Shown here in pieces: positions 19,301-46,059 of a DNA stretch of 62,658 nucleotides. Positions within the stretch are counted from its first letter, which is position 1, and each line of letters opens with the position of its first letter. The notes below the pieces were generated by a model, which was not told the origin of the DNA, ran no database searches, and saw nothing but the letters and a program-made list of their open reading frames with translations. The position numbers were made by a program, and so were the translations under genes. The stretch comes from Bacteroidota bacterium (GTDB taxonomy: Bacteria; Bacteroidota; Bacteroidia; Bacteroidales; Paludibacteraceae): assembly GCA_022708505.1 (NCBI GenBank), contig JAKIYP010000005.1, positions 1-62,658 on the forward strand, in the 5' to 3' direction.

Positions 19301-20902
19301 TTGCTGTCTGAAGTAGTTGAACAAACGTTGTGGTTTGTCGGAGAAAACTGATAGAGCCACGTCGTTGCCCATCGACGAAACAGGTTCCTGTCCGCCTTCC
19401 GCCATCGGGATCATCAGTTTTTCTATGTCTTCCCGTGAATATCCGAAAGCAGTCAGCAGGGTTTTGTAATTGCTGATGTCGGTTTTAACCGTTCTTCCGG
19501 ATGATATTTGATCTAAATTGATGCGGTTTTTGTCTAACCATTCTTTGTACGGGAAAGCTTTTGCCAACCCTTCTTTGAGTTCGCGGTCGTAGTAGATTTC
19601 ACCTCTCTCGGTATCAATCATAATCATTTTACCCGGTTTCAGTCGGCCTTTTTCCTTGATGCGGGAGGCTTCGAATTCGATGGTCCCTGTTTCAGATGCA
19701 ATCACCATCAGGTCGTCGTGGGTAATGAGGTAGCGGGCGGGGCGCAGACCGTTCCGGTCGAGCATACCACCTGCATAGCGGCCATCGCTGAAAAGCAGGG
19801 TAGCCGGACCGTCCCACGGTTCCATGAACATAGAGTGGTATTCGTAGAAAGCTTTCAGGTTGTCAGAAATCGGGTTCTTGTCGTTCCAGCTTTCGGGTAC
19901 CAGCATTGCCATGGCGTGTGGCAGACTTTTGCCCGACATCACTAAAAATTCGAGTACGTTATCCAGCGAAGCTGAATCGCTCATACCGGGCTGTACAATC
20001 GGCATCAGGGCTTTCAGGTCGCCCAGCTGGTCCGATTTAAGCACACTTTCGCGCGATTCCATCCAGAAACGGTTGCCGCGGATGGTGTTGATTTCGCCGT
20101 TGTGACCGAGCAAACGGAAAGGCTGCGCCAAATCCCAGGTCGGGAAGGTGTTCGTGCTGAAACGGGAATGCACCAGCGCGATACCACTGGTAAAATGCGG
20201 ATTCGATAAATCCGGGTAATATTCGCGTAATTGCAGGGAAGTCAACATGCCTTTGTACACCATCTGGCGGGTGGAAAGACTTACCATGTAGAAACTTCTG
20301 TCCTTGGCTAAGTTGGATTTCAGGATGGCATGTTCAATTTTTTTCCTGACAACGTAGAGCTTCGATTCCAGTGCCTGTTGGTTGGTAGCGCCGGTGATGA
20401 AAACCTGTTTGATAAGTGGTTCGTTGGAAGCCGAGATAGCGCCTAAGATATCGCTGTTAACAGGTACATCGCGGATGGCCAGCAGTTGCAGACCTTCTTT
20501 CTCCACATTTTCTTTGATTACATTGAGGCACAGAGCCGCTTTTTGTTCTTCTCTCGGAAGGAAAACAAGACCTGTACCGTATTTGCCTTTGGCTGGTACA
20601 GGTATGCCCTGAAGCAGGATGAATTCGTGCGGGATTTGAACCAGGATTCCGGCGCCGTCGCCCGTTTTGTTGTCGGCGCTTTCGGCTCCGCGGTGTACCA
20701 TGTTTTCCAATACCTGTAAACCTTTTTCGACAATCTCATGCGATTTCTCGCCGTAAAGATTGAGCACCAGTCCAACACCGCAGGCATCGTGTTCGTTTTG
20801 AAATGAGTACAGCGATTGCTGTTCTATTTCGCTGATTTGTAGAGGGTTCATGTTCATGTCTTTAATCTGTGAATGGGTGTGAAATCCCATGTCAAACTGC
20901 AT
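16331..20902 (-). CDS. gltB: Glutamate synthase large subunit
   Basis: The ~1,520-aa catalytic subunit of GOGAT. The glutaminase domain begins after a short propeptide at EHDACGVGLV; the Cys at ~41 becomes the N-terminal nucleophile. The FMN/synthase domain includes MSYGSISREAHEAMA and GEGGEDPERY. The 3Fe-4S cysteines lie in CVIMRKCHLNTCPVGIA near residue 1140, and the C-terminal GXGXG beta-helix is complete (SGGRIVVVPP, GGVAYVYDENG). Length is close to E. coli GltB (1486 aa after processing). The frame could extend to a TTG at 20908. I use the ATG at 20902, though MNPLQIS (ATG at 20851) would give a propeptide length closer to relatives. It precedes gltD. Confidence 0.95.
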   Translation of the reverse strand: MQFDMGFHTHSQIKDMNMNPLQISEIEQQSLYSFQNEHDACGVGLVLNLYGEKSHEIVEKGLQVLENMVHRGAESADNKTGDGAGILVQIPHEFILLQGIPVPAKGKYGTGLVFLPREEQKAALCLNVIKENVEKEGLQLLAIRDVPVNSDILGAISASNEPLIKQVFITGATNQQALESKLYVVRKKIEHAILKSNLAKDRSFYMVSLSTRQMVYKGMLTSLQLREYYPDLSNPHFTSGIALVHSRFSTNTFPTWDLAQPFRLLGHNGEINTIRGNRFWMESRESVLKSDQLGDLKALMPIVQPGMSDSASLDNVLEFLVMSGKSLPHAMAMLVPESWNDKNPISDNLKAFYEYHSMFMEPWDGPATLLFSDGRYAGGMLDRNGLRPARYLITHDDLMVIASETGTIEFEASRIKEKGRLKPGKMIMIDTERGEIYYDRELKEGLAKAFPYKEWLDKNRINLDQISSGRTVKTDISNYKTLLTAFGYSREDIEKLMIPMAEGGQEPVSSMGNDVALSVFSDKPQRLFNYFRQQFAQVTNPPIDPIREELVMSLTAYVGSVHTNLLEPAPEICKMVKLKSPVLTNAQFDILLHLQYKGFSTAVLPMLFKAKDGKKGLEKAVKELCLAVEKAVDDGKNYIVLSDRGVNGENAPIPSLLAVSAVHHYLIDKRKRMQTDIVVETAEPREVMHFALLFGFGANAVNPYLAFCILNNQIKSGDLQLDFHTAEKNYIKAVKKGLLKVMSKMGISTLRSYRGAQIFEAIGISSAVVNTYFKGLVSKIEGIDMEDIAAEVLQPHQSAFFPAEGEEPGLLNLGQYAYRVEGVQHAWNPETIARLQIATRTGSYEKYKEYVKAVDEKESPIFIRDLLEYKRNPISIDEVEPAEKIMKRFVTGAMSYGSISREAHEAMAMAMNVIGGRSNTGEGGEDPERYKKRADGLSTRSAIKQVASGRFGVTAEYLVNADEIQIKIAQGAKPGEGGQLPGHKVDKIIAKTRHSIPGISLISPPPHHDIYSIEDLAQLIFDLKNINPTAIISVKLVSESGVGTIAAGVAKAKADLILISGTEGGTGASPSSSIKHAGLPVEIGLAETQQTLVINNLRGQVILQTDGQLKTGRDVIVSALLGAEEFGFATSALIVLGCVIMRKCHLNTCPVGIATQDAELRKHFMGRYEYLINFFRFLAEDVREHLAELGYRSIDEIVGHAELLQRKKVEGPAKIDKVDLSRILYVPAENSTMALHHVKNQEHKIHSVLDVELIKKALPALDLCMPVEIKSPVKNTDRTVGAMLSGEIAKRYGQAGLPDSTILAHFTGSAGQSFGAFLSKGITFKLEGDANDYLGKGLSGGRIVVVPPTGSTFRPDKNIIAGNTMLYGATSGEVYINGVAGERFCVRNSGATAVVEGAGDHCCEYMTGGRTVVLGATGRNFAAGMSGGVAYVYDENGDFDYYCNMEMVELSLIEDSMDSKELHALITNHYKYTQSAKAKEILDNWRDNVDKFIKVVPIEYKKVLQEEKMEAINKKIAQVERDY

Positions 20903-20926
20903 GTGCAATTTGTTTTATTGTTTATT

Positions 20927-20958
20927 ACAGCGGAATACCGGTCAGGATATTCCGCTGT
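20927..20958 (-). promoter_or_regulatory. Hairpin between glnN and gltB (attenuator or processing site)
   Basis: ACAGCGGAATA (20927-20937) and TATTCCGCTGT (20948-20958) form an 11-bp perfect stem with a 10-nt loop, between the glnN stop and the gltB start. There is no long U tract after it on the minus strand, so it is more likely a weak terminator, mRNA-stability stem or processing site that sets the glnN:gltB ratio than a full terminator. Confidence 0.55.
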
Positions 20959-20987
20959 TAAAGAGATAGATGCTTAGAAAAGTGGAC

Positions 20988-23183
20988 TTATCGGATGAAA
21001 AGTAATTCTCTGTATTTTGGCAGTGTCCACATCTGGTTGTCGACGATTAATTCTAATTTGTCAACGTCGTAACGGATTTTGTCAAAGTAAGGGAACACCT
21101 CATCGTGATAAGCTTTCGCTTTATCATATTCATGTTCAATTTTATTCGCAATCTTGCGCGCTTCCACCATGGCATCCACGTTGTTTTTGATTTTGCAAAT
21201 GCGGGTTGAAATTTCTTCAATCAGCGATTTGTTCATGGATGAAAGTTCATCAGCCTTGTCCTTTGGATACACTTCGTACATTTTGTATACATTATCGAGC
21301 AGCAAGGACTGATATTTAGTCACTACCGGAATGATGTGGTTCATACACAAGTCGCCCAGTACGCGCGCTTCAATCTGGATTTTCTTCGTGTAAGTTTCCC
21401 ATTTTACTTCATTACGGGCATGTAATTCTTTTTCCGACAATACGCCTACTTTTTTAAACATGGCGATTGTTTCCGGTTTTGTATAAGCTTTGTAAATTTC
21501 CGGTACGCTGGTTTCGCAGTCCAGCCCTCTTTTGGCAGCTTCTTTTTTCCATTCATCGCTGTAACCGTTACCATCGAAACGAATCGGTTTGGAAATTTTG
21601 ATGTACTCTTTCAATACTTCGAAGATGGCTTTTTCTTTGGTAGCGCCGGCAGCAATTTTTGCATCTACAGCAACTTTGAAATCTTCCAGTTGAGCTGCTA
21701 CTGCACTGTTCAGCGCGATTAATGCTGAAGAGCAGTTAGCCGAAGAACCTACGGCGCGGAATTCGAAACGGTTACCAGTGAAGGCAAACGGAGAAGTCCT
21801 GTTACGGTCGGTATTGTCGAGCAATACTTCAGGAATATGTGGAATGCCTAATTTCAGAATTTGTTTGTCGTCCATCACGATGGCCTCATCAGAAGTGCTT
21901 TTTTCTAATTTGTCGAGTACCGCGGTAATCTGTGAGCCCAGGAATGCTGAAACAATGGCCGGAGGAGCTTCATTAGCGCCCAGACGGTGCGCATTGTTAG
22001 CAGTCATGATCGACGCTTTCAGCAAAGCATTGTTCTTGTACACAGCCATCAGGGTATTCACTAAGAAGGTGATGAACTGCAGGTTTTCTTCCGGAGTTTT
22101 ACCCGGGGTAAGCAGGCCCACACCCGTGTTTGTTCCCAGTGACCAGTTGTTGTGTTTACCCGAACCATTCACGCCAGCGAAAGGCTTTTCGTGCAACAGC
22201 AAACGGAAGCTATGACGACGGGCCACTTTCTTCATCAGCGACATAATCAGCAGGTTCTGGTCGTTCGACAGGTTGGCTTCGCCGAAGATAGGAGCCAGCT
22301 CGAACTGGTTCGGAGCTACCTCGTTATGTCTTGTTTTTAAAGGGATACCATATTTATAAGCCTCAAATTCGAGGTCTTTCATATAGGCAGCCACCCGCGA
22401 TGGTACAGCGCCAAAATAGTGGTCTTCCAACTGCTGGTTTTTAGCCGATTCGTGACCCAGTAAGGTCCTGCCGGTCAGCGCCAAATCCGGACGGGTTGCA
22501 TACAAACCTTCATCCACTAAGAAATATTCCTGTTCCCATCCCAGGTAGCAAACTACTTTATTAACAGTTGGATCGAAATACTTGCATACGGCCGTTGCTG
22601 CTTTGTCAACCGCGTTCAGGGCTTTCAACAAAGGCGCTTTCAGATCGAGCGATTCGCCGGTGTAAGAGATGAAGATGGTCGGGATAACCAGTGTGTCATC
22701 CATAACGAAAGCAGGAGATGAAGGATCCCATGCCGTATAACCACGTGCTTCGAACGTGCTGCGGATACCTCCACTGGGGAAGGAAGACGCATCAGGTTCC
22801 TGCTGAGCCAGGAGCTTCCCGGAGAAATCTTCGATAATACCTTCGCCCGGAGCGCCGATGTAATCGATGAATGAATCGTGCTTTTCAGCTGTTCCATCCG
22901 TCAGCGGCTGAAACCAGTGTGTGTAATGGGTCGCACCTTTTTCCATCGCCCATCGTTTCATACCGGCTGCCACGTGATCAGCAATGCCTCTTTCTAATGC
23001 CACACCATTATCCACAGCATTCTGAACCGATTTCAATGTGTCTTTTGACAAGTATTTCGCCATGGTTGAGCGGTTAAATACGTATTTACCAAAATAGTCG
23101 GATGTGAGTACGCCCGGGGCTTCTACACATAAAGCTTTTTTCTTGTAAGCTTCTTCTACTGCTTTAAATCTGAGTGATGACAT
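20988..23183 (-). CDS. glnN: Glutamine synthetase type III
   Basis: A 731-aa GSIII enzyme that makes glutamine from glutamate, ammonia and ATP; this type is characteristic of Bacteroides relatives and forms double-ring dodecamers. The long N-terminal region (THWFQPLTDGTAEKHDSF), the Glu-binding EVAPNQFELAPIFGEANLSNDQN and the ATP/Glu block KPFAGVNGSGKHNNWSLGTN are intact. RNRTSPFAFTGNRFEFRAVGSS follows. Length matches the family (~730 aa, versus 470 for GSI). The gene lies between amtB (upstream, with a terminator between) and gltB, so the GS-GOGAT pair is encoded together. Confidence 0.97.
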   Translation of the reverse strand: MSSLRFKAVEEAYKKKALCVEAPGVLTSDYFGKYVFNRSTMAKYLSKDTLKSVQNAVDNGVALERGIADHVAAGMKRWAMEKGATHYTHWFQPLTDGTAEKHDSFIDYIGAPGEGIIEDFSGKLLAQQEPDASSFPSGGIRSTFEARGYTAWDPSSPAFVMDDTLVIPTIFISYTGESLDLKAPLLKALNAVDKAATAVCKYFDPTVNKVVCYLGWEQEYFLVDEGLYATRPDLALTGRTLLGHESAKNQQLEDHYFGAVPSRVAAYMKDLEFEAYKYGIPLKTRHNEVAPNQFELAPIFGEANLSNDQNLLIMSLMKKVARRHSFRLLLHEKPFAGVNGSGKHNNWSLGTNTGVGLLTPGKTPEENLQFITFLVNTLMAVYKNNALLKASIMTANNAHRLGANEAPPAIVSAFLGSQITAVLDKLEKSTSDEAIVMDDKQILKLGIPHIPEVLLDNTDRNRTSPFAFTGNRFEFRAVGSSANCSSALIALNSAVAAQLEDFKVAVDAKIAAGATKEKAIFEVLKEYIKISKPIRFDGNGYSDEWKKEAAKRGLDCETSVPEIYKAYTKPETIAMFKKVGVLSEKELHARNEVKWETYTKKIQIEARVLGDLCMNHIIPVVTKYQSLLLDNVYKMYEVYPKDKADELSSMNKSLIEEISTRICKIKNNVDAMVEARKIANKIEHEYDKAKAYHDEVFPYFDKIRYDVDKLELIVDNQMWTLPKYRELLFIR

Positions 23184-23477
23184 AATTTTTGTATTTTGTG
23201 GTTTATTTAATATCTTATTGTTATGTAAAAATATGATATGGCTAACTTTATGTTAGTTATTCTTTGCAAAAATAATAATAATGTTATTTATATTATTATT
23301 TTTATTGTTAATTGTTTGATTTAAAAACCAGATGTGTCAATTTGATATTCAATCTTCGTTTTTTGCTTACAAATCCGAATTAAAACCGAATTATATGTTA
23401 TAAAGCATAAAATCTTAATATTGTCTTTCTTAGTTTTTTAATCTGCAAAGATACATACTTTTCTTGCAAATTTGTTA

Positions 23478-23512
23478 AAAAGACAGGCTATTTCTCACGA
23501 AGTAGCCTGTCT
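23478..23512 (-). terminator. Rho-independent terminator after amtB
   Basis: On the minus strand, AGACAGGCTA pairs with TAGCCTGTCT (23503-23512 and 23481-23490) with a 12-nt loop, followed by a T run. It closes the glnK-amtB transcript. The rest of 23184-23573 is very AT-rich (runs of TTATTATT) and contains no gene; it must hold the glnN promoter. Confidence 0.8.
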
Positions 23513-23573
23513 GAAACAATAAAACTAAAAAACACACGATTAAATTCAAGAACTTCACCGTGTTTGGGGTTGA

Positions 23574-24806
23574 TTAATTATACGCCGTTTCACCGTGTTC
23601 GTATATATCCAATCCTTCTTCTTCCACACGTCTTGAAACGCGGAGTATTTTCGCTTTCTTCAGGATGAAGAAGAGTATCAGTCCTGTGCCGAACGACCAG
23701 ATAAAGAAGGTTACAACGCCGATGGCCTGTATGCCTAACTGGCTCCATCCGCCTCCGTAGAACAAACCGTTGGTGGTGGAAAATAATCCAACCATCAGGG
23801 TTCCGAAGGCTCCGGAAACGCCGTGAACGGAAATTGCACCTACAGGATCATCGACTTTCACTACTTTATCAAAGAACTCTACCGCGAAAGGCAGTATGAT
23901 GCCGGCCATAGTGCCGATAAGCACTGCACCAACGGGGTCGACCACGTTGGCACCGGCCGTGATGGCTACTAATCCGGCCAATGCGCCGTTGAGTGAGAAC
24001 GATAGTTCCGGACGTCTGTAGCGGAACCACGAAACCATCATAGCTGCGATAGCGCCTGCGGCAGCGGCTAAGTTGGTGGTTACGGCAATGTGCCCGATGG
24101 CTACCGCGTTTTCAGTCCCTGAAGCTGCAAGCTGTGAGCCGGGGTTGAACCCGAACCATCCGAACCAGAGGATGAAAACACCCAACGCACCTAACAAGAG
24201 GTTGTGTCCGGGAATGGCATTCGGTTTTCCCTGTTTGTTGTATTTCCCGATACGGGGACCGATAACAGCGGCTCCGGCGAGACCTACCCAGGCGCCTACC
24301 GAGTGAACGATAGAAGATCCTGCGAAATCGTGGAAGCCCAGTTGACTTAACCATCCGCCTCCCCAGGTCCAGTGACCGGAAATCGGGTAAATCAGCACAG
24401 AAATCACAATAGTAAAAATCAGATATGCCTTGAATTCAGTCCGCTCGGCCATGGCGCCCGATACAATCGTGGCTGCCGTCGCGCAGAATACGGTTTGGAA
24501 AAACAAGTCTGAATAATCCGCGTAGTTATCGCCATAACCATCGCTCATAAAGAATAAATCGGGTATTCCGATCAGGCCGGCAATTGAATCGCCATACATC
24601 AGGGTAAAGCCAATTACCCAGTAAAGTATTGATCCGATTGCAAAGTCCATCAGGTTTTTCATCAGGATGTTAGCCGTGTTTTTTGACCGGGTGAAACCGG
24701 CTTCAACCAACGCAAATCCCGCCTGCATGAACATCACCAGAAATCCGGCAATCAGCAGCCACATATTGTCAAGACCTATCTGCAGGCCTACTATATTTTC
24801 TTCCAT
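23574..24806 (-). CDS. amtB: Ammonium transporter
   Basis: A 410-aa Amt/MEP channel of the inner membrane, with about 11 transmembrane helices. It starts at the ATG at 24806 (the frame opens 9 bp earlier with TTG). The family signature is clear: DFAGSSIVHSVGAWVGLAGA with the first pore His, and DPVGAISVHGVSGAFGTLMVGLF with the second. The helix GFALVEAGFTRSKNTANILMKNL is also typical. It lies 30 bp downstream of the PII gene, the standard glnK-amtB pairing in which GlnK plugs the channel when nitrogen is plentiful. Confidence 0.96.
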   Translation of the reverse strand: MEENIVGLQIGLDNMWLLIAGFLVMFMQAGFALVEAGFTRSKNTANILMKNLMDFAIGSILYWVIGFTLMYGDSIAGLIGIPDLFFMSDGYGDNYADYSDLFFQTVFCATAATIVSGAMAERTEFKAYLIFTIVISVLIYPISGHWTWGGGWLSQLGFHDFAGSSIVHSVGAWVGLAGAAVIGPRIGKYNKQGKPNAIPGHNLLLGALGVFILWFGWFGFNPGSQLAASGTENAVAIGHIAVTTNLAAAAGAIAAMMVSWFRYRRPELSFSLNGALAGLVAITAGANVVDPVGAVLIGTMAGIILPFAVEFFDKVVKVDDPVGAISVHGVSGAFGTLMVGLFSTTNGLFYGGGWSQLGIQAIGVVTFFIWSFGTGLILFFILKKAKILRVSRRVEEEGLDIYEHGETAYN

Positions 24807-24836
24807 AATTTTCAATTTTGTAATTTGTAATCAGGT

Positions 24837-28392: not shown

Positions 28393-30612
28393 TTACTCTC
28401 CCAGTTCCAGTTGATTTCTAACCAGATTGAAGTATTCGGATTGATTGGAAACAAGTTCCTGATGGGTGCCTTTTTCTGTAATCATACCGTTTTTCAGCAC
28501 GATGATTTGATCCGCGTTTTTTACGGTAGATAAGCGGTGGGCGATGACAATCACAGTCTTTCCGTGGAAGAATTTTTGCAGGTTATCATAGATGTGTTTT
28601 TCGCTTTCGGCATCAAGTGAGCTTGTTGCTTCATCGAAAAAAATATAATGCGGATTTTTATATACTGCCCTGGCAATCAGGATGCGCTGTCGTTGACCAC
28701 CGGAGATTCCATTCCCGTCGGTGCCGATTTTTGTTTTATAACCCAAAGGTAAAGAGTCAATATAATTGTCAAGAAAGGCTGTTTGGGTTGCAGTTTTTAG
28801 CTTCTCCGGGTCTATATCTTCATCTCCTGTCGCTATATTGCGTTCGATGGTGTCTGAGAATATATAACCATCCTGCATCACTACACCACTGTTTTGACGA
28901 ATACTCTTAGCAGATAGCCGGTTGATATTTTCCTTATCATATAAAATGTTACCTTCAACCGGACAAAAGAACTTCAGCAGCAACTTCAGTAGGGTGGTTT
29001 TTCCACTTCCGCTAGTCCCAACGATGGCCGTAATTTTACCTTCAGGTATAAATAAATTGATGTTTTTCAGAACGAATGGCGACTGGGGGCCCTGATATTG
29101 AAATGAAACATTTCTTAAAGTGATTCCTTTCTCAAGGGGTGTTAGTAGTTTTGTGTCTTGAATGTGTAAGGGAAGTTGATTAGGTTGTTCTTCGTCCGGG
29201 TTGTGTTGGACTTCGTTCAGACGTTCCAGCGATAAACGTGCTTCCTGCAGAGAACGAAAAAAGACGACCAGTTGGTTTACCGGAGAATTCATTTGCCCGA
29301 TGATGTAGGAAATACCCATCAATTCGCCCAGGGTCATTTGCCCAATTACCACCTGATAGGCAGCCAGGAAGGTTACCACGATGTTTTTAAACTGGTTGAA
29401 GAATTCAAATCCTGCATGTTGAAACTGGTCTATTCTCAATAACCTGAGGTTAATTTTATAGAGTTTTTGCTGAATATTCTCCCATTCCTTGCATTTGTAT
29501 TCTTCAAACTGATTCAGTTTCATTTCTGAAACACCATTAATCAACTCATAGATGGAACTTTGATTTTTGCTTTGTTCCTGAAATTTAAAATAATCAACAA
29601 TTTTGCGTTTTCGTAGCCAGAAGAACGACCAGAAGATCGCAATGGTGGTCATAATCAAATAAATCGCCAGAATATTGATGTCGTAGTAACATAGTACGCC
29701 GAAATAAACTGAGAATGTGATGATAGAGAAAGCTGTTAGTATAGTCTGTGATGTGATGAAATTCTCAATTCGCTCATTGTCTTGAATGCGTTGCTGAAGA
29801 TCTCCGATCATTTTCGATTCGAAGAATTTGATGGGTAAACGAAGCATCTTTCTCAAAAATGCTGCAATGATTCTGATGCTGAGTATTGTTCCTGTTTTTA
29901 AAGCAATTCGGTTTCTGATGATTTCGAAAGTAATCAATCCGAAAAACAAAGCCAGTTGTGCAAACAGGATAAGGGTAATAAAATCCAAATCTTTATAATT
30001 TATCCCTTTGTCGATAAGATTTTGGGTTAGAAACGGGAATGTCAGATTGATACCACTCCCAAGTAGCAGCAACACCATCATTGCGATGAGTTGTTTTTTG
30101 AATGGTTTCAGGAAGTTAAGCAAGTATTTGATTGAAGGCTTCCGTATCGTATCCTGTTTTTGTTTTGAAAATTGAGTTGAAGGTTCCATGAATAAAACCA
30201 CCCCTTCCTCGTCACCACTTAGAAATGAGAATTCAAATTTCTGTTGATTAAGCGAAATAAATCCATAAGCAGGGTCGGCAAGTTTAAATATATATTTGTT
30301 TGTAAACATTGACTTGCTGATTTTCCTAAGTACGACAAAATGATTTTGGTTCCAATGTAAGATACAGGGTAAGGATACTTGTGAACTAATGACCAGTCCA
30401 ATCAGTTTTTCAAGTGTAAGTTTAGTTGGTAAAGTAGAAAAACCAATTTTCTCCGCTGCTTGCGTTATGCCAAGCAAGGTTACGCCTTCACGGGTGAGGA
30501 AAGTGTTCTCGCGCAGGTACTGGATGTCATAAGTTTTGCCGTAATGACTTGCAATCATGGATATACAGGCCGGACCGCAATCCATTAAATCGTGTTGTGG
30601 AATAAATTTCAT
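28393..30612 (-). CDS. Peptidase-containing ABC transporter (C39 / PCAT), peptide exporter
   Basis: A 739-aa exporter that cuts precursor peptides after a double glycine and exports the core. The N-terminal C39 peptidase has DLMDCGPACISMIASHYGK (Cys12), the catalytic His in QNHFVVL (His91) and Asp in LADPAYGF (Asp113). About six TM helices follow between residues 165 and 440. The ATPase domain has Walker A VGTSGSGKTTLLKL, signature ISGGQRQRILIARA and Walker B YIFFDEATSSLD. It closes the RiPP operon, 53 bp after the radical SAM gene, and the double-glycine leaders of both peptides are the expected substrates. No HlyD-type fusion partner is seen in the cluster. Confidence 0.92.
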   Translation of the reverse strand: MKFIPQHDLMDCGPACISMIASHYGKTYDIQYLRENTFLTREGVTLLGITQAAEKIGFSTLPTKLTLEKLIGLVISSQVSLPCILHWNQNHFVVLRKISKSMFTNKYIFKLADPAYGFISLNQQKFEFSFLSGDEEGVVLFMEPSTQFSKQKQDTIRKPSIKYLLNFLKPFKKQLIAMMVLLLLGSGINLTFPFLTQNLIDKGINYKDLDFITLILFAQLALFFGLITFEIIRNRIALKTGTILSIRIIAAFLRKMLRLPIKFFESKMIGDLQQRIQDNERIENFITSQTILTAFSIITFSVYFGVLCYYDINILAIYLIMTTIAIFWSFFWLRKRKIVDYFKFQEQSKNQSSIYELINGVSEMKLNQFEEYKCKEWENIQQKLYKINLRLLRIDQFQHAGFEFFNQFKNIVVTFLAAYQVVIGQMTLGELMGISYIIGQMNSPVNQLVVFFRSLQEARLSLERLNEVQHNPDEEQPNQLPLHIQDTKLLTPLEKGITLRNVSFQYQGPQSPFVLKNINLFIPEGKITAIVGTSGSGKTTLLKLLLKFFCPVEGNILYDKENINRLSAKSIRQNSGVVMQDGYIFSDTIERNIATGDEDIDPEKLKTATQTAFLDNYIDSLPLGYKTKIGTDGNGISGGQRQRILIARAVYKNPHYIFFDEATSSLDAESEKHIYDNLQKFFHGKTVIVIAHRLSTVKNADQIIVLKNGMITEKGTHQELVSNQSEYFNLVRNQLELGE

Positions 30613-30665
30613 TTGTTTAGTTTAATCTCAATCAACCAGAAAGGAGATGTAATCCCAGCGCCTAA

Positions 30666-31958
30666 TCAGCTGATTGCGTAAATCAGCTTTTCAAGGATAA
30701 CATCAATCTTCTTTTTTTCATCAAAACCGTTTACGCAGTATTCCTTACCCTTGTTTTCAATTGCTTTTTGAGAGCAGGAACCGTTGCAAACGGGCATGAT
30801 AGTGCATTTCAAGCAGGGTGGATTCTTGAATTTGGCATTCATCCGTTCGATATATTTTTTATTCCATACGATTTCTCCTTCGTCAGTTAAAACTCCCTCT
30901 CTGTTTTCTGTTTTGAAATCTCTGGCTGTACATTTGAAAACATCACCGTTGAAATTGATGGTTGCCTGATTTTGTTTGTCCGCATAACAGGAGTATTGAA
31001 CGGTATCGGTGAATCGTGCATAATTTGTTTGCAGTCCTTTTGATTTAAAGTATTCAATGGTTTTCAAAATTTCATTGTTCAGATTAGTTTCTTCTTGCCA
31101 AACCTGATGAAAAGAGAAACTAATCAATTCTTTTTCCTTTTCAGTCAGGTCGGTAAAATCCTGTACGATAAGTACGAGATCATCGTTAATGGTTTCTTTC
31201 GAGAGATTGATACGGCATGTTACATGGAGCTTGTGTTTCAGACAGGATTTGATGTTTGTGATAATCCGATCGTAGCTGCTGATTTCTTTGGAAACAGAAC
31301 GTACCTGATTGTGTCGTTGGCGGTGTCCGTCTAAAGTTATCTGAAATGATCTTACACCGAGTCGGGTGCACTCCGAAAGTGTTTTTTCATTGATTAGCAG
31401 TCCGTTTGAAGTGAAATCAGACTGAAAAATAATTTTTTTATTGTGATTGTCAATACAGGACCGAACATGTTCCAGAATAGGCATCACTACTTGATTGAAA
31501 TACAGCAAAGGCTCTCCTCCGAACCAACCAATTGACAGATATTTTATCGCCGGATTGCTTAATTTATTGTCGATAAGTTTCTTTATTTTCTCTATCTCGG
31601 GTTTTCCCATTTTTGAATCTTTGATATGCGTTTCGTAACAGTACCAGCATTTGAAATTGCAGTTCATGGTGGGATTAATAATGAGATGGAAAAATTCCGG
31701 GTTGCAATCGATAGAGTGTACCTTGTCTTTGACGAGTTTCAGTTCATCTGTATCATTCGGAATGAAAAAGCGTTTCTGAACTAGTACGTCATAAAATTCC
31801 GGATGAATGTCTTTCAGTTTATCAACATCATCTGATTTCATTTGTTGATAAAGCTGGTGTAATTCGGGTGTCAGAAAGATAAAATCATTTTCAAGAGAAT
31901 TGTATCCAATAATACAATTTTCATAAGGGAAAAAGGTGTTAAACTGACTGTTTTTCAT
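30666..31958 (-). CDS. Radical SAM/SPASM peptide maturase
   Basis: A 430-aa enzyme expected to install a radical-generated crosslink on the neighbouring peptides. The SAM-cleaving 4Fe-4S motif CNFKCWYC is at residues 100-107. The C-terminal SPASM domain has the full spacing CxxC-x5-C-x3-C (CLKCTIMPVCNGSC), plus an earlier Cys (CTARDF) and a final one (KEYC), enough for two auxiliary clusters. The N-terminal ~80 residues before the barrel probably hold the leader-binding RRE-like region, though I cannot show that by eye. SPASM enzymes of this type make thioether (sactipeptide/ranthipeptide) or C-C links; the chemistry here is open. Confidence 0.92.
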   Translation of the reverse strand: MKNSQFNTFFPYENCIIGYNSLENDFIFLTPELHQLYQQMKSDDVDKLKDIHPEFYDVLVQKRFFIPNDTDELKLVKDKVHSIDCNPEFFHLIINPTMNCNFKCWYCYETHIKDSKMGKPEIEKIKKLIDNKLSNPAIKYLSIGWFGGEPLLYFNQVVMPILEHVRSCIDNHNKKIIFQSDFTSNGLLINEKTLSECTRLGVRSFQITLDGHRQRHNQVRSVSKEISSYDRIITNIKSCLKHKLHVTCRINLSKETINDDLVLIVQDFTDLTEKEKELISFSFHQVWQEETNLNNEILKTIEYFKSKGLQTNYARFTDTVQYSCYADKQNQATINFNGDVFKCTARDFKTENREGVLTDEGEIVWNKKYIERMNAKFKNPPCLKCTIMPVCNGSCSQKAIENKGKEYCVNGFDEKKKIDVILEKLIYAIS

Positions 31959-32067
31959 AGTTTTAATTTCTAATTTCTACTGTCTACTGCCTGCAGACTT
32001 GTTTATAATAAGCTCCCGGCTTTAACTTTACAACCAGGTTGCCATGTCGCAGTCGGAAGCTTGTTTT

Positions 32068-32244
32068 TTAACACATAATATTAATGCAGGTACAGTTACC
32101 GCAATTAAAAATGTTGGTTCTTGTTCTTGGTATCCTGAATCCACCTTTGAGCTTTAATAGTTGGTCGGATGTCAGGATGCTAAAACCTTCTTCAAGAAAT
32201 TTGTTTCCTGAAAGTAATTTGTCAACTTTCTTTTTCGATTCCAT
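32068..32244 (-). CDS. RiPP precursor peptide A (58 aa, double-glycine leader, Cys-rich core)
   Basis: A short gene translated by hand from the minus strand. The 35-residue leader begins MESKKKVDKLLSG and ends QLLKLKGG. The 23-residue core begins FRIPRTRTNIF and ends NCGNCTCINIMC. The leader has the same length as that of peptide B and aligns without gaps (FSILTSDQLLKLKGG against FTVLNVNQLDKLKGG), and both end in NCxNCxCxNIxC. It lies between peptide B and the radical SAM gene in the same orientation. Two independent lines (leader and core match to peptide B) support that it is real. The C39 exporter should cut after GG. Confidence 0.88.
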   Translation of the reverse strand: MESKKKVDKLLSGNKFLEEGFSILTSDQLLKLKGGFRIPRTRTNIFNCGNCTCINIMC

Positions 32245-32282
32245 AATTGAAGTGTTTTTTCAATGAATGGTGTCGCTACTGA

Positions 32283-32465
32283 TTAACAGTGAATGTTTGT
32301 ACAGGCGCAGTTACTGCAATTTCCAGCATTGAGATCTCCGACTGGATTTCTTGAGTTTAAACCACCTTTCAGTTTGTCAAGTTGATTCACATTTAAAACG
32401 GTAAATCCATTTTTGAAAGCGCCATCTTCGGCATACAATTTTGCTAATTTGTTCGTCGATTTCAT
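32283..32465 (-). CDS. RiPP precursor peptide B (60 aa, double-glycine leader, Cys-rich core)
   Basis: A 60-aa peptide from the ATG at 32465. The frame starts two codons earlier (32471), but beginning at MKSTNKLAK gives a leader exactly as long as in peptide A (35 residues, ending QLDKLKGG). The 25-residue core begins LNSRNPVGDLNAG and ends NCSNCACTNIHC. It contains four Cys in the pattern C-x2-C-x-C-x4-C, identical to A. The core residues outside the Cys motif differ freely, as expected of variable products of one maturase. It is 38 bp upstream of gene A. Confidence 0.9.
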   Translation of the reverse strand: MKSTNKLAKLYAEDGAFKNGFTVLNVNQLDKLKGGLNSRNPVGDLNAGNCSNCACTNIHC

Positions 32466-32554
32466 AAACATTTAATTTTAAATTAATAATTAAGTAATTA
32501 GATTCTCTTTTTTGAGCAGACATGGAATCATCGGTCTGCCTGATTGCAATCAAG

Positions 32555-34762
32555 TTATTTTATCCGTTCTTGTTCTTCGGTATTGCTTATATTGTGTTTG
32601 GTAGCGCGCAGATTCCGGTTGCCAAATTTGTAGCCGATAAATAGCCTAATGTTTTGGGTATCGCCGTAATTATCATACACATACCTGATGTTGTTAGAGG
32701 TGATAGTTGATTTCGCGTGATTGGTCCGCAAGATGTCGTTGGCAGTCAGCGATAGAATCAGGTTCTCGTTGAAAAGCTGAAGTTTGATGCCTGCATACAA
32801 TATATAAAGTGATTCAATGTGATTGTAGGCTGCCAGGTGCGGAAATTCGTAAAAGAGCCCAAGGTTTAGCATGCATGTTTTCTTTTTGTTCAGTGTAAAG
32901 TCATTGTTCGTGTATAATTTCCCGCTCACTATGTTCGTTGTCGGGATGGCAGCAGTCAGTGTTGCTTCTTTTCGCATGTAATAAGCTGCTGCATAGTTGT
33001 AGGAAGTCCACCACGGGAATGTGTCAAACAACCAACTTTCAGACAGTCCGGCGCTGAAATAATTGACACAATTTTCAGGATAATGACGTACAATCCTGGT
33101 GCTGGGATCTACAAACGGGAAACTGAAATAATCACCCGAAACGGCTGTGTACCAAATTTTGTGTTCAAAATTGGATGTGCTCAATGCGAATTCAAGATTA
33201 TCAGCATAAGAAGGTTTCAGGAAAGGATTTCCTTCATTATAATCATAGGCGTTAAAATACGATTTGAAGGGATTTAATGTCATGAAGTCAGGCCGGTTAA
33301 GTCTGCGGCTAAAATTAATACCTGCTGATCTTTCTTCGTTTGATTGATAATTCAGGAAACAACTTGGAAATACACGCAAGTAACGATTAGTTGTAGTCTG
33401 ATTGAGTGTTTGAGAATATCCTTCTGTCGTTGTATTTTCCAATCTGAAGCCAATTTGCATATCCAGCTTCTTTGAAAATTGTTTGGTTGCAGAACAATAA
33501 ACTGCCTGAATCGTTTCTTTGTAGTTAAAAATATTGGTTTGGTTTTCGTCGATGATATTATGGCCAGTACTGTTATCATAAAAAACAAAATCATTTTTAT
33601 TTTCTGAAAACGACACTTTGCCCCCGAAATTCAGGTTTACCCATTTCAGAGGCAGGTCAACATGAATTTTTGCTGCGTAATTCGTTACTTTACCATTGTT
33701 GCAGTTGATGTTGGCATAATACAAGTCAGGTAGCAGGTTACTGCCGGCATCGCATGTGTTTCCAAGATTGTTGATTGAATCGAATCCGTTGTAAATAAAG
33801 TAATCAAAATCAGCGACGATCTTTTTGCCGAGCGAGTCTATTTTTGTGATGCTGTGTAAATTGAAGGCATTCAAATAGCTATTTTTGCTCACATTTCTCA
33901 CAGTAAGCATGTATTCTTTTAAAAATCCGTCCGTGTCATATATATTAGTAGTGATGTGGTTGTTTGTACGGTAGTTGCCCGAGAGGTTGCCAAAATACAG
34001 GGCTCCGACAGTCCATCGGTTGTTTATTTCATAGTCGAACCCTGCGTTTCCGTTGATTAAATTGGTGTTACCTTTAAATGGTGCAGTTAAAATCCAGGTT
34101 TCATCCCCATAGGATATTGAGTTCTTCATGTCGTAAAAAGTCTGCCTGAAATCGGAAGTGAAACCCGAATAAAATGAGAGTTTCCTGGTTTTAAAATTAA
34201 ATTCTGCACCAGCATTCCCCTGTGGATAGGTTGCTTGCGTATAACTTCCCCTCAGATTCAGGTTCCATGAATCGTTGGTCGCCGTTTTCAATACAATATT
34301 GACAATGCCGCTGTTACCTTCCGCGTCGTATCTGGCAGATGGCGCCGTAATCACTTCGATGGATTTAACAGAAGCTGTTGGTATGCCTTTTAAATAAGCC
34401 GATAGACTTTCTCCACTGAGTGGAATGATCCTGTCGTTGATGGTGACTATTATGTTGCTTTTTGCCGTCATGCTGATTTGATCATCCTGTATTTGTACCC
34501 CCGGAGTCATGCGCAAAGCCTCAAAAATATTGCTGCCGGAATTATTTAAGGTGTTTTCTACATGGAAAATCAGACGATCATTTTTTCTGACGAACAATTT
34601 CTTGCGGGCAACTACATTAACTTCCTTTAGTTGTAATTTCCAGGCCGATGTGTCGGTTGCGTTTGGAATGCTGTTGGATTGTTGTGAAGTTTGGGCTGTC
34701 AGGTCATTGAAAAATACCAGCAATAGAAATGATACGGGAAAAACTATTTGATAAAATTTCAT
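32555..34762 (-). CDS. TonB-receptor-like outer-membrane barrel of the RiPP cluster
   Basis: A 735-aa outer-membrane protein with signal peptide (FPVSFLLLVFFNDLTAQ), a plug domain (~residues 60-155: NIFEALRMTPGVQIQDDQI and SIEVITAPSARYDAEGNSGIVNIVLK) and a ~22-strand barrel of the OMP_b-brl_3 type. It lacks the carboxypeptidase-like N-terminal domain of many SusC proteins. It is the first gene of the minus-strand RiPP operon. It could move the mature peptide across the outer membrane, or be a receptor for it; the reaction is not shown by sequence. The C-terminal tail (NISNTEEQERIK) is unusually charged for a barrel end. Confidence 0.82.
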   Translation of the reverse strand: MKFYQIVFPVSFLLLVFFNDLTAQTSQQSNSIPNATDTSAWKLQLKEVNVVARKKLFVRKNDRLIFHVENTLNNSGSNIFEALRMTPGVQIQDDQISMTAKSNIIVTINDRIIPLSGESLSAYLKGIPTASVKSIEVITAPSARYDAEGNSGIVNIVLKTATNDSWNLNLRGSYTQATYPQGNAGAEFNFKTRKLSFYSGFTSDFRQTFYDMKNSISYGDETWILTAPFKGNTNLINGNAGFDYEINNRWTVGALYFGNLSGNYRTNNHITTNIYDTDGFLKEYMLTVRNVSKNSYLNAFNLHSITKIDSLGKKIVADFDYFIYNGFDSINNLGNTCDAGSNLLPDLYYANINCNNGKVTNYAAKIHVDLPLKWVNLNFGGKVSFSENKNDFVFYDNSTGHNIIDENQTNIFNYKETIQAVYCSATKQFSKKLDMQIGFRLENTTTEGYSQTLNQTTTNRYLRVFPSCFLNYQSNEERSAGINFSRRLNRPDFMTLNPFKSYFNAYDYNEGNPFLKPSYADNLEFALSTSNFEHKIWYTAVSGDYFSFPFVDPSTRIVRHYPENCVNYFSAGLSESWLFDTFPWWTSYNYAAAYYMRKEATLTAAIPTTNIVSGKLYTNNDFTLNKKKTCMLNLGLFYEFPHLAAYNHIESLYILYAGIKLQLFNENLILSLTANDILRTNHAKSTITSNNIRYVYDNYGDTQNIRLFIGYKFGNRNLRATKHNISNTEEQERIK

Positions 34763-34855
34763 ACAGAATTAAAGTGCTAATGTGTAAAAATCAGAATCGG
34801 TTATGTTAATAGAAAATAATCTATGCAAAGATTGCAATAATTCCTGAGCCAAAAC

Positions 34856-34887
34856 TTGCTTCTTATTGCAGTTTTATTGTAATTTTG
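34856..34887 (+). promoter_or_regulatory. Promoter of the RiPP-cluster regulator
   Basis: TTGC at 34856, then a 20-nt gap, then TAATTTTG at 34880-34887. This fits the Bacteroidota -33/-7 pattern. It lies between the divergent TonB-like gene and the XRE gene, so the RiPP operon promoter must share this ~165-bp region. Confidence 0.5.
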
Positions 34888-34928
34888 TGCAAAATCTAAA
34901 TACTTATTTTTAAAGGAGAAGTTTTATC

Positions 34929-35288
34929 GTGTACAAAAGTAAGCTAATAAAAATGCGCAGAAAGCTGGGGTTTACGCAGGACAGGATGGCGGAAGCGCTT
35001 TGTATGGATGTTTCGTGTTACTGTCGGCGTGAAAGTGGACAGATTAAAATTCCGGCTGAGCAGTGGTTGAGAATAGCAAAGATCCTGGGAGTGTCCCTGG
35101 AAGAGATATACGAGTCGGAGGATGAGCTCATTGCTGTTGTGGATAGAAATGATGCTACTATTAACTGTGCTGAAGTGAGGCAATATACCCTGCCCGAAGA
35201 AATCTTAGATAGGTATCAGAAACACATCGAAATGCTGGAAATGGAACTCAACCGGCTGAAAGAATTGCTGAAACTGGCAGCGCGATAA
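34929..35288 (+). CDS. XRE-family regulator beside the RiPP operon
   Basis: A 119-aa protein with an N-terminal helix-turn-helix (KMRRKLGFTQDRMAEALCMDVSCYCRRESGQIKIPAEQWLRIAKILGVSLEEIY) and a C-terminal coiled coil (LDRYQKHIEMLEMELNRLKELLKL) that probably dimerises it. The start is GTG at 34929, preceded by AAAGGAG at 34912-34918, an unusually clear ribosome site for this phylum. An ATG at 34953 would begin at RRKLGF and cut into the domain. Because it is divergent from the RiPP operon and next to its promoter, it is the most likely local regulator. Confidence 0.8.
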   Translation: MYKSKLIKMRRKLGFTQDRMAEALCMDVSCYCRRESGQIKIPAEQWLRIAKILGVSLEEIYESEDELIAVVDRNDATINCAEVRQYTLPEEILDRYQKHIEMLEMELNRLKELLKLAAR

Positions 35289-41255: not shown

Positions 41256-44200
41256 GTTGTGATTTGCTTTCAAAAAATTGTATCTTTGACTTGATAAACA
41301 ACTAAAGTTTTAATTGTTAGTACTAAACAGTTGTTGTGATTTGCTTTCAAAAAATTGTATCTTTGACTTGATAAACAACAGATTAGTTTTAGCCTCAGCA
41401 CAAGCCTAGTTGTGATTTGCTTTCAAAAAATTGTATCTTTGACTTGATAAACAACTAATGCAAAACGGCATCATGCAGCCTTCCGGTTGTGATTTGCTTT
41501 CAAAAAATTGTATCTTTGACTTGATAAACAACCTGCTATCCGGGATGATTATATCCGGGTAGTTGTGATTTGCTTTCAAAAAATTGTATCTTTGACTTGA
41601 TAAACAACTGGTGATGAATCACCCCTACGGGTTCAGGTGTTGTGATTTGCTTTCAAAAAATTGTATCTTTGACTTGATAAACAACTGTAAATCCTGCCGA
41701 TTGTCGTACACTTGTGTTGTGATTTGCTTTCAAAAAATTGTATCTTTGACTTGATAAACAACTTGGAAAACTCGCGCTACAATTACAGTTCGTTGTGATT
41801 TGCTTTCAAAAAATTGTATCTTTGACTTGATAAACAACTTTTTTGTGCGTCCATACCTCTGTAATGCTGTTGTGATTTGCTTTCAAAAAATTGTATCTTT
41901 GACTTGATAAACAACCCTCCAGTAGCTCCACCGTTAGTTGTATTTGTTGTGATTTGCTTTCAAAAAATTGTATCTTTGACTTGATAAACAACTAAAAATT
42001 TGAACTTCCTTTTTGTTTTCGTGTTGTGATTTGCTTTCAAAAAATTGTATCTTTGACTTGATAAACAACTTGCTGTATTTTCGAAACCTTCTTTGTCCTG
42101 TTGTGATTTGCTTTCAAAAAATTGTATCTTTGACTTGATAAACAACGTAAACTCACATAAAGACGTTAAAGGCGCGGTTGTGATTTGCTTTCAAAAAATT
42201 GTATCTTTGACTTGATAAACAACTGTAGCACTGTCCGAGGTAAATGGGTTCACGTTGTGATTTGCTTTCAAAAAATTGTATCTTTGACTTGATAAACAAC
42301 TTGAAGGTTACACCCGAAGACGTTATCTCTGTTGTGATTTGCTTTCAAAAAATTGTATCTTTGACTTGATAAACAACCGAAAGAGGGCTGGGCAACTGAT
42401 TACGATTGTTGTGATTTGCTTTCAAAAAATTGTATCTTTGACTTGATAAACAACAATACTATCGCAGTATCGGCTTGTGTACCAGTTGTGATTTGCTTTC
42501 AAAAAATTGTATCTTTGACTTGATAAACAACCAGAATTGAATGAATTAAATCGATAAGGCGTTGTGATTTGCTTTCAAAAAATTGTATCTTTGACTTGAT
42601 AAACAACAATTGAGCAACATGGCACAACCGACCCCTGGTTGTGATTTGCTTTCAAAAAATTGTATCTTTGACTTGATAAACAACTCAACTCCGGGCGTCT
42701 GATAACCCCGAGTTGTTGTGATTTGCTTTCAAAAAATTGTATCTTTGACTTGATAAACAACTTCGGTATTAACAAGTTCTGTTAAATTGCGTTGTGATTT
42801 GCTTTCAAAAAATTGTATCTTTGACTTGATAAACAACCATCAGAATCTAATACCATCACAGCGGATGGTTGTGATTTGCTTTCAAAAAATTGTATCTTTG
42901 ACTTGATAAACAACTTGGTGCGTTTGCGGTCGCCGGACCAGCTGTTGTGATTTGCTTTCAAAAAATTGTATCTTTGACTTGATAAACAACAGGCGATTTG
43001 TGACCGGTTAAAGGTTCCCGTTGTGATTTGCTTTCAAAAAATTGTATCTTTGACTTGATAAACAACCAAATCAGGTTTCAATCATCGAAGCAAGCGTTGT
43101 GATTTGCTTTCAAAAAATTGTATCTTTGACTTGATAAACAACACCAAGTATTTTCTCCCCATGATGAACCGGTTGTGATTTGCTTTCAAAAAATTGTATC
43201 TTTGACTTGATAAACAACCAATAAACTTGTTATCGTTGACAGCAAAGGGTTGTGATTTGCTTTCAAAAAATTGTATCTTTGACTTGATAAACAACGAATC
43301 ACGAAACATTCACCGCCTATCCGCTGTTGTGATTTGCTTTCAAAAAATTGTATCTTTGACTTGATAAACAACAATTGTTGTTGTCGGAGTTATTGGCTTG
43401 TTGTTGTGATTTGCTTTCAAAAAATTGTATCTTTGACTTGATAAACAACCTCCTGACCGCTGCAATTGTTCATCGTTAGTTGTGATTTGCTTTCAAAAAA
43501 TTGTATCTTTGACTTGATAAACAACCTTATAAAGTTTTGGGCTACCGCCAATAATGTTGTGATTTGCTTTCAAAAAATTGTATCTTTGACTTGATAAACA
43601 ACCTGTGTGGTACTTAGCCCTGCAATTTCTAGTTGTGATTTGCTTTCAAAAAATTGTATCTTTGACTTGATAAACAACAATACTATCGCAGTGTCGGCCT
43701 GTGTGCCAGTTGTGATTTGCTTTCAAAAAATTGTATCTTTGACTTGATAAACAACAAAAAGCGCTGACATTTCCCGGCTGAATTCGTTGTGATTTGCTTT
43801 CAAAAAATTGTATCTTTGACTTGATAAACAACCGGAAAAATTAAAGGCGACACCCTATTACGGTTGTGATTTGCTTTCAAAAAATTGTATCTTTGACTTG
43901 ATAAACAACGTAAATTTTTATTCCTTCCTACCTCACTTTGTTGTGATTTGCTTTCAAAAAATTGTATCTTTGACTTGATAAACAACACTGAGGGATAACC
44001 TTCCGTGCTTTCCGCTGTTGTGATTTGCTTTCAAAAAATTGTATCTTTGACTTGATAAACAACTATGATTTAATATTTAGTTGCCCACCTTATGTTGTGA
44101 TTTGCTTTCAAAAAATTGTATCTTTGACTTGATAAACAACATAATCAATAGCGAGAGAAAAGGCAAATTCGTTGTGATTTGCTTTCAAAAAATTGTATCT

Positions 44201-46059
44201 TTGACTTGATAAACAACGGCAGTGCCGCGATGCTCAGACCCTTGTCGTTGTGATTTGCTTTCAAAAAATTGTATCTTTGACTTGATAAACAACTTTTTGT
44301 AGTCGCTAAATCGGTGTGAAATAGTTGTGATTTGCTTTCAAAAAATTGTATCTTTGACTTGATAAACAACTCCACGTTTGCAAATCCTCCACGATTCGAG
44401 TTGTGATTTGCTTTCAAAAAATTGTATCTTTGACTTGATAAACAACAAAACCCTTTTGTCGTTCGTGCAAAATTCCGTTGTGATTTGCTTTCAAAAAATT
44501 GTATCTTTGACTTGATAAACAACTGATGACATTGAACAGTTTGTGGGGAACAAGTTGTGATTTGCTTTCAAAAAATTGTATCTTTGACTTGATAAACAAC
44601 TATCCCTACTCTTACCGAAATATCATCGTCGTTGTGATTTGCTTTCAAAAAATTGTATCTTTGACTTGATAAACAACAACAGGCGAAGTTGAACCTTCGC
44701 AAAATCGGTTGTGATTTGCTTTCAAAAAATTGTATCTTTGACTTGATAAACAACCAAACGCCTGTGCAATCCTGAGCTGTTCATGTTGTGATTTGCTTTC
44801 AAAAAATTGTATCTTTGACTTGATAAACAACAAAGAAAGCGATTTGCAAAAATAAATTTATGTTGTGATTTGCTTTCAAAAAATTGTATCTTTGACTTGA
44901 TAAACAACACGCATTTATTTACCTTTTCTGAGCTTTCGGTTGTGATTTGCTTTCAAAAAATTGTATCTTTGACTTGATAAACAACACGTTGATTTTTTAA
45001 GCCGCCGTATTCCTTGTTGTGATTTGCTTTCAAAAAATTGTATCTTTGACTTGATAAACAACGAAGTGCCGCAATCAATCAGCGAAGAATCTGTTGTGAT
45101 TTGCTTTCAAAAAATTGTATCTTTGACTTGATAAACAACTCAGGAATGATACAAGGGAAGTATTGCGGAGTTGTGATTTGCTTTCAAAAAATTGTATCTT
45201 TGACTTGATAAACAACTTTGTAATTTTCTTTGGCTATTTACTTTTGTTGTGATTTGCTTTCAAAAAATTGTATCTTTGACTTGATAAACAACTGGCAAAA
45301 TTTAACTATTAAGTGTATTGCAGTTGTGATTTGCTTTCAAAAAATTGTATCTTTGACTTGATAAACAACACATAGTCCTATATGTGTAACTAAAAACAAG
45401 TTGTGATTTGCTTTCAAAAAATTGTATCTTTGACTTGATAAACAACAACAGGTGTACGTCCGGACAGATAATTGAGTTGTGATTTGCTTTCAAAAAATTG
45501 TATCTTTGACTTGATAAACAACTTTGAAAGAAATATCTGTAATATCAACGTCGTTGTGATTTGCTTTCAAAAAATTGTATCTTTGACTTGATAAACAACT
45601 GCTATTTTGAAAGTGTTTTTTGTAAACCGTTGTGATTTGCTTTCAAAAAATTGTATCTTTGACTTGATAAACAACGAGCGTAGTTATATATCCACCTTGA
45701 ACATCGTTGTGATTTGCTTTCAAAAAATTGTATCTTTGACTTGATAAACAACCCCTTTGTGAAAAGGGCTTTCTTGTTATGGGTTGTGATTTGCTTTCAA
45801 AAAATTGTATCTTTGACTTGATAAACAACTCCTGATATGCTCGAGCATGGTATTTTGTCGTTGTGATTTGCTTTCAAAAAATTGTATCTTTGACTTGATA
45901 AACAACGACAAACTAATAGACGTATTCGTCTTTTCGTTGTGATTTGCTTTCAAAAAATTGTATCTTTGACTTGATAAACAACATTTTTATGATTTAGTTG
46001 ACTGGGGTTTTTGTTGTGATTTGCTTTCAAAAAATTGTATCTTTGACTTGATAAACAAC
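41256..46059 (+). CRISPR. Type II-C CRISPR array, 63 repeats / 62 spacers
   Basis: Sixty-three copies of a 47-nt repeat (begins GTTGTGATTTGC, ends TGATAAACAAC), the first at 41256-41302 and the last at 46013-46059. Spacers are 45 of 30 nt and 17 of 29 nt (repeat intervals 77 or 76). I read every repeat and saw no base difference, including at both ends. The tracrRNA anti-repeat is complementary to the plus-strand repeat, so crRNAs are read left to right, toward the cas genes and opposite to them, as in other II-C systems. Each repeat contains TATCTTTG (bases 26-33), a perfect phylum -7 box. Two spacers are a synonymous pair (see findings). Confidence 0.99.

Follow-up and report, generated by a model that had tools for sequence, protein, structure and literature searches.

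In the NxxC peptides of Streptococcus, which belong to the ribosomally synthesised and post-translationally modified peptides (RiPPs) made by radical S-adenosylmethionine (SAM) enzymes and known as RaS-RiPPs, the SPASM-type maturase NxxcB links Cys23 of the precursor NxxcA to the C-beta of Asn20, three residues upstream (PMC8326336, PMC13361665). Freyrasin, in turn, carries six Cys-Asp C-beta thioether rings (PMC11002830, PMC8326336). Here we describe a locus at positions 28393-35288 of a 62,658-nucleotide stretch of DNA (GenBank contig JAKIYP010000005.1, assembly GCA_022708505.1; "the window" is this whole stretch) from a Bacteroidota bacterium of the family Paludibacteraceae. With a probability of roughly 60%, we read it as a compact RiPP operon whose ranthipeptide-like product has up to four Asn-Cys thioethers, is cut after the motif LKGG and is exported by a C39 protein.

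The NxxC system and the window locus have in common a SPASM-type maturase and the distance between partners: two of the four pairs predicted in each window core are Asn-x-x-Cys, the other two being Asn-x3-Cys. However, to judge from the available parts of the NxxC reports, one ring is formed there, whereas up to four, with a second spacing of four, are predicted here, and the Streptococcus genes are under Rgg/SHP control, where the window has an XRE regulator, a double-glycine leader, a C39 exporter and a TonB barrel; NxxcB is likened here by description, not by sequence. The freyrasin/PapB system, as described in the extracts available, shares with our prediction the many Cys, each linked S to C-beta with its own acidic or amide-type residue. 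Its acceptor is Asp, whereas Asn is predicted here, a comparison that covers the identity of the acceptor and not its side of the Cys.

The arrangement of transport genes also has precedents. The Itf cluster of Bacteroides thetaiotaomicron (ItfA-F) likewise has a C39 exporter (ItfE), a TonB-dependent transporter (ItfF) and a SPASM-type enzyme, but differs in its YcaO partner and its Trp-Ile carbon-carbon bond, and the accessible part of its text describes no Cys pairing (PMC11002830). The Bacteroidales biosynthetic gene clusters (BGCs) 6-9 of Fernandez-Cantos et al. (2023) similarly combine a peptidase-containing ATP-binding cassette (ABC) exporter (PCAT) with an outer-membrane protein, and no membrane fusion protein was found in them. 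These are YcaO or LanM clusters, however, and BGC1 and BGC2, which have a radical SAM enzyme only, lack the layout of the window in the portion of that report available to us (PMC10352776). Export of the colicin V type relies on a C39 ABC protein with HlyD and TolC, whereas the window cluster has no HlyD-type fusion protein. Thus, a C39 exporter with a TonB barrel and without HlyD has already been published (PMC10352776, PMC11002830), and the layout is not new in itself. We found no account of this family, or of its Asn spacing, in the open-licence literature, where most subscription papers are lacking.

Asn-Cys spacing in the precursor cores

The locus encodes two precursor peptides, A and B, which are homologous to each other (phmmer). 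Their cores of 23 and 25 residues follow LKGG, have four Cys each and both contain NCxNCxCxNIxC, exactly as an earlier note on this DNA had described them. We matched the Cys of each core one-to-one with Asn at set offsets and compared the result with shuffles of the same core. In both window cores, every Cys (4/4) has an Asn of its own at -3 or -4; shuffling gave a full match in 13 of 20000 cases for core A and 199 of 20000 for core B.

When one genome per species was scanned, 97 maturase relatives came up, and the 80 best loci were kept. Precursor open reading frames (ORFs) in these 80 loci were picked by their G-G, Lys and Cys content, Asn not being used. After 14 picked ORFs had been dropped (no usable Cys, too long or of the wrong make-up), 149 cores were available from 80 of the 81 sources, that is, the 80 loci and the window. 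In the close group, comprising the 11 loci (window included) with maturases at least 52% identical and holding 26 distinct precursors, 82 of 99 Cys were matched at -3/-4, whereas 300 shuffles averaged 28 and reached 38 at most, while the next best neighbouring offset pairs gave 52/99. Removing cores more than 60% identical left 73 of 87 matched (shuffle maximum 36, 100 shuffles). Across all 111 non-redundant cores, 254 of 424 Cys were matched at -3/-4 and 324 when offsets from -3 to -5 were allowed, no shuffle exceeding 160. An Asn stood at -4 for 166 Cys against 58 expected. The mirror offsets +3/+4 were at chance in the same set (111 against 107 expected).

Asn is also frequent at +2, by way of repeats with a period of six, and the cores with many Cys alone leave the direction unsettled. 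Cores with a single Cys bear on this directly: the seven distinct ones (four from locus L036 and one each from L042, L059 and L065; six are in the non-redundant set) all carry an Asn at -4, and in no case is there one at +2. Upstream of the maturase, L036 has an array of near-identical one-Cys precursors ending INIYQC or similar. In five further cores from outside the set, 12 of 19 Cys were matched against 4 expected (0/500 shuffles). These were picked after inspection, with patterns written after the ORFs of 23 loci had been viewed and with Asn content in the ORF ranking, so that they are only partly independent.

The locus and its precursor leaders

The features of the locus are as follows.

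28393-30612, minus strand: C39 peptidase-containing ABC exporter (PCAT), 739 aa (ORF and Pfam)
30666-31958, minus strand: radical SAM/SPASM peptide maturase, 430 aa, with an RRE-like N-terminal domain at about residues 1-65 (Pfam, NCBIfam and model)
31959-32067, minus strand: gap between precursor A and maturase, hairpin-forming (folding energy)
32068-32244, minus strand: precursor peptide A, 58 aa, with a 35-aa leader ending LKGG and a 23-aa core at 32071-32139
32283-32471, minus strand: precursor peptide B, 62 aa, with a 37-aa leader ending LKGG and a 25-aa core at 32286-32360
32555-34762, minus strand: TonB-dependent outer-membrane barrel with plug, 735 aa, PF14905 (Pfam and model)
34828-34875, between the divergent barrel and XRE genes: inverted repeat, candidate operator (repeat scan)
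34929-35288, plus strand: XRE-type regulator, 119 aa, GTG start, divergent (HTH_3)

The earlier note had read from the letters a minus-strand run of barrel, peptide B, peptide A, radical SAM/SPASM protein and C39 exporter, with a divergent XRE gene that has a GTG start and AAAGGAG, and no HlyD gene in the cluster. The ORFs lie in that order, the start and AAAGGAG are present in the sequence, and neither the ORF list nor Pfam gives an HlyD gene here. The gaps along the run, from barrel to exporter, are 83, 38, 109 and 53 bases, which is compatible with a single operon. The proposal of a RiPP locus also holds up, profile, leader and motif evidence being in line with double-glycine precursors of the C39 type, a SPASM maturase and an exporter.

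The 26 distinct precursors of the close group align on GF-x2-L ... K-x-x-G-G, with the second GG present in 26/26. The GF is preceded by a further Gly, as GGF, in 24 of the 26, while the window peptides have NGF and EGF instead; in most other members of the family the first GG is the sole one, as LxGGF. Since the window peptides are without the older GG, they are most likely cut at the second, LKGG, and their sequences suggest that the window precursors lost the first. Neither peptide has a match in Pfam or NCBIfam. Membership of TIGR04149, a GG-Bacteroidales precursor family, was considered and set aside: the window peptides do not match it, and 1 of 67 precursors of the present family does, at E 0.0017.

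In the gap between precursor A and the maturase, a hairpin at 31955-32075 folds with -29 kcal/mol (z -2.36; 4 of 200 shuffles fold equally well), and a terminator scan listed no site in this gap. It is suggestive only, but the hairpin may reduce the expression of the downstream genes and so set the precursor above the enzyme. The arms of the inverted repeat, 34828-34840 and 34863-34875, are 13 nt long and 85% complementary; this could be an operator, and a chance origin is also conceivable. The XRE protein matches HTH_3 at 1.8e-08 in Pfam, and the RstR model of NCBIfam with 39.6 bits, against a cut-off of 80. A phmmer search (E 1e-5) of the window and 103 loci matched only the XRE gene itself. 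We therefore dropped it as a conserved part of the family and regard it as a local regulator.

The maturase

The expected SPASM maturase was recognised by its CX3CX2C motif and SPASM cysteines and by the NCBIfam SPASM domain model TIGR04085, which it matches above cut-off (38.6 against 27 bits). In Pfam, Radical_SAM is found at 1.1e-14, and SPASM at 0.0024, below its cut-off (18.5 against 21.5 bits). C100, C104 and C107 of the CX3CX2C motif and Cys 324, 382, 385, 391 and 395 are invariant in 58 sequences, while C343 and C408 are kept in at least 90% of them. A SPASM domain that holds two extra clusters has this number of Cys.

The AlphaFold2 model has a mean predicted local distance difference test (pLDDT) score of 90.9, the cluster loop at 101-110 being poor. 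Its residues 7-61 form a beta-beta-beta-helix-helix-helix unit, the layout of a RiPP recognition element (RRE) domain. We call the N-terminus RRE-like on our reading of this model, the fold comparison having been made with the whole protein. In that comparison (Foldseek), the nearest folds are TigE (8vpo), SuiB (5v1s) and CteB (5why), and by sequence only SuiB, ChlB and BtrN were found in the Protein Data Bank.

The best NCBIfam match is to TIGR04463, a family of radical SAM RiPP maturases, and is nearly full length, yet it scores 158 bits where the equivalog cut-off is 525; the best TIGR04463 match among the 58 maturase relatives (E 9.1e-55) is, by comparison of E-values, also far under it. 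The model of the PapB ranthipeptide maturase, NF047865, gives 113 bits against a cut-off of 340. The best NCBIfam near-misses of the maturase are RiPP maturases, PapB among them. The earlier note could not match the core to a characterised product, and profile scans likewise matched neither maturase nor peptides to a named RiPP family: NCBIfam and Pfam gave no curated RiPP identity for the six window proteins, 58 maturases, 67 precursors and 47 genes after the exporter.

Exporter and outer-membrane barrel

The exporter matches Peptidase_C39 (1.4e-29), ABC_membrane (1.9e-31) and ABC_tran (2.5e-29), all above cut-off, and phmmer aligns it over its full length with the bacteriocin transporter 4ry2. 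Its Q6, C12, H91 and D113, which we take to be the C39 catalytic residues, sit in the motifs QHD, DCGPAC, NHFVV and DPA, and a Walker A motif lies at 532. It is the only Peptidase_C39 match found in its own genome, which is 75% complete. Six HlyD_3 matches lie elsewhere in the same genome, and since such genes are present, the usual HlyD route to the outer membrane is still conceivable. In the relatives, 3 of 47 same-strand genes after the exporter match HlyD_3. One of the close relatives, L032, has an HlyD gene in this position, and we dropped HlyD-free export as a rule for the family. Several other loci have a gene of 160-245 aa after the exporter that, judged by eye from its start, may be HlyD-like.

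The barrel matches OMP_b-brl_3 at 3.3e-73 and Plug at 0.0032 (below cut-off). Its model (mean pLDDT 81.9, residues 1-52 poor) contains plug and barrel, and its top Foldseek matches are the TonB-dependent transporters Cir, PirA, PfeA and ChuA. The consensus of the relatives' barrels has, by eye, an N-terminal carboxypeptidase-regulatory-like stretch, which the window barrel is without. We compared the window barrel with 102 others, the background being the highest-scoring PF14905 matches of the class and three from its own genome. The first background barrel came at rank 40 with 223 bits, the best other barrel scoring 425. In a FastTree tree of 63 maturase-adjacent and 32 background barrels, two label changes were counted compared with 27 in shuffles (0/500 as low), a count that omits seven barrels placed otherwise. 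The maturase-adjacent barrels therefore cluster apart from the background of the same Pfam family, and could, on these sequences, have a single origin. Distances between barrels correlate with those between maturases (r 0.47, 55 loci; 0 of 2000 permutations above 0.15), as do those between exporters and maturases (r 0.82). The suggestion that the barrel belongs to the peptide locus is supported: gene order, score ranking and tree indicate that barrels of this type regularly, and not accidentally, go together with such maturases.

For what such a barrel might do, there are precedents in the accessible parts of two papers. Myxococcus needs a TonB-dependent transporter to secrete its protease PopC (PMC6434023), and PF14905 proteins are listed for graspetide loci, in which TonB-type receptors are predicted or proposed to mediate export (PMC8939145). 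The window barrel may serve in export, uptake, sensing or self-protection. One relative, L161 (G426 C2:2690000-2704000), has three PF14905 barrels around a 44% identical maturase, and no clear precursor was found there.

Conservation and distribution

Of the best 80 of the 97 maturase loci, 64 are preceded on their own strand by a related barrel and 72 are followed by a related C39 exporter; 60 have both, some contigs stopping too early to tell. Most of these loci have one to six small precursors between barrel and maturase. Since this gene order recurs in other Bacteroidota, the grouping goes beyond chance, and we conclude that it is a real, conserved RiPP system. The titles of maturase relatives that name an organism are nearly all from Bacteroidota, with one labelled Beijerinckiaceae.

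The maturase is rare: at E 1e-40, 18 of 393 genomes of the order were positive, and at 1e-90, 2 of 395 genomes from across the phylum, the window genome being included each time. Among 48 genomes of the genus, a full-length relative was found only in the window's own, one other match being 31% identical over residues 90-370, and five listed genomes of the same family from outside the genus gave no relative. The closest maturases among the best 80 of the 97 are from Flavobacterium, at about 56% identity, while sampled members of the order reach 45%. With no other full-length relative among the 48 genomes of the genus and the closest maturases in Flavobacterium, the system was likely gained horizontally. 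For the symporter gene next to it, relatives occur in three further genomes of the genus, with 71% DNA identity at best, so that the contig itself belongs there. Carriage by a phage or virus was considered and set aside, a scan of viral contigs having given no relative.

A gene of a lantibiotic dehydratase cluster lies near the maturase relatives of L042, L049, L057, L059, L063, L070, L071, L095 and L097, and one member of that cluster, from L069, was confirmed by Pfam. These loci may, as far as gene content indicates, combine radical SAM and lanthipeptide steps.

Elsewhere in the window are a CRISPR-Cas9 locus (41256-52075), with an array at 41256-46060 that repeats about 62 times with a period of 77, Cas1 at 46502-47437 and a Cas9 of 1477 aa at 47642-52075, and a nitrogen assimilation cluster (12982-24815) with asparagine synthase, glutamate synthase subunits, type III glutamine synthetase and an ammonium transporter.

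Proposed mechanism and alternatives

In the mechanism that we propose, the SPASM maturase would bind the leader of the precursor through its RRE-like N-terminal domain and would form a thioether between each core Cys and the Asn that precedes it by three or four residues, ring after ring. It is presumed to act along the core as NxxcB does, given the precedent of Asn/Asp C-beta thioethers in NxxcA and freyrasin. The predicted pairs are N9-C13, N12-C16, N15-C18 and N20-C23 in core A, and N11-C15, N14-C18, N17-C20 and N22-C25 in core B. The calculated monoisotopic mass of core A is 2689.253 without modification and would be 2681.191 with four crosslinks; for core B the values are 2589.094 and 2581.031, four thioethers thus corresponding to a loss of 8.063 Da. 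The product would be a multi-ring ranthipeptide with bonds from S to Asn C-beta, like that of the Streptococcus NxxC system. The C39 exporter would cleave after LKGG and deliver products of 23 and 25 residues to the periplasm, where the co-inherited TonB-dependent barrel would handle them at the outer membrane, either for release or for uptake or sensing. The type of bond, the number of rings, the site of cleavage and the direction of the barrel are what we infer here. A stricter version, for a Bacteroidota family of multi-ring ranthipeptides in which every Cys has one Asn C-beta thioether (to the Asn three or four before it) and a dedicated, TonB-powered barrel replaces HlyD/TolC for export, seems to us doubtful.

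Several observations weigh against our reading. The close group still has 17 Cys out of 99 without a matching Asn, and L028 has only 1/3. Outside that group, 229 of 447 Cys match at -3/-4, and -4/-5 does better there (253/447). The core of L004, whose maturase is 44% identical, has 0/4 matched, and among more distant loci, L009 and L016 have their Asn at -5 and L010 and L015 have none. The spacing itself could reflect a bond from S to C-alpha, another modification of Asn, or a metal site. With regard to the barrel, its model has the fold of an importer (as Cir and PfeA), and its correlation with the maturase being weaker than that of the exporter (r 0.47 against 0.82) suggests that barrels are perhaps sometimes swapped.

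The C-alpha bond is the mark of a sactipeptide, in which the Cys sulfur would be joined to the C-alpha of Asn or of neighbouring residues instead of to C-beta. SPASM enzymes of similar fold form such bonds, for which Asn is one of the acceptors on record (PMC8326336). Small-ring sactipeptides are demonstrated by streptosactin. However, the same source, in the part available, describes sactipeptides mostly as hairpins in which the Cys are N-terminal and the acceptors, drawn from all residue groups, C-terminal (PMC8326336), whereas the window family has its candidate acceptors upstream of the Cys at a constant spacing, with Asn in nearly every case; we therefore consider sactipeptide bonds unlikely. 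A Cys-rich peptide for metal binding or uptake, with the barrel as its cognate importer in the manner of a metallophore, would account for the plugged barrel with the fold of a siderophore or haem receptor in the same operon. Against this, the family has cores with one or two Cys, which would be poor chelators through their thiols alone, and no recognised metal gene is present in the cluster, making this quite improbable.

The end of the leader also resembles a classical double-glycine leader, and Bacteriocin_IIc gave a weak match to 1 of the 67 precursors (E 0.0067), as might be expected if the peptides were ordinary class II bacteriocins, unmodified or with disulfides, and the maturase acted on another substrate. 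Yet the precursors directly precede the maturase throughout the loci read, and their Asn spacing fits a substrate rule, so that we regard this as very improbable indeed.

For the ranthipeptide-like reading, the one-Cys members of the type seen in L036 are attractive minimal substrates for C-beta thioether formation, provided that the Asn-Cys pairing is real. The family would then also be suited to finding out whether a RiPP leaves or enters the cell through a TonB-dependent barrel. If the Asn-Cys rule is true, the positions of the rings would be predictable from sequence across a whole uncharacterised family of Bacteroidota peptides.

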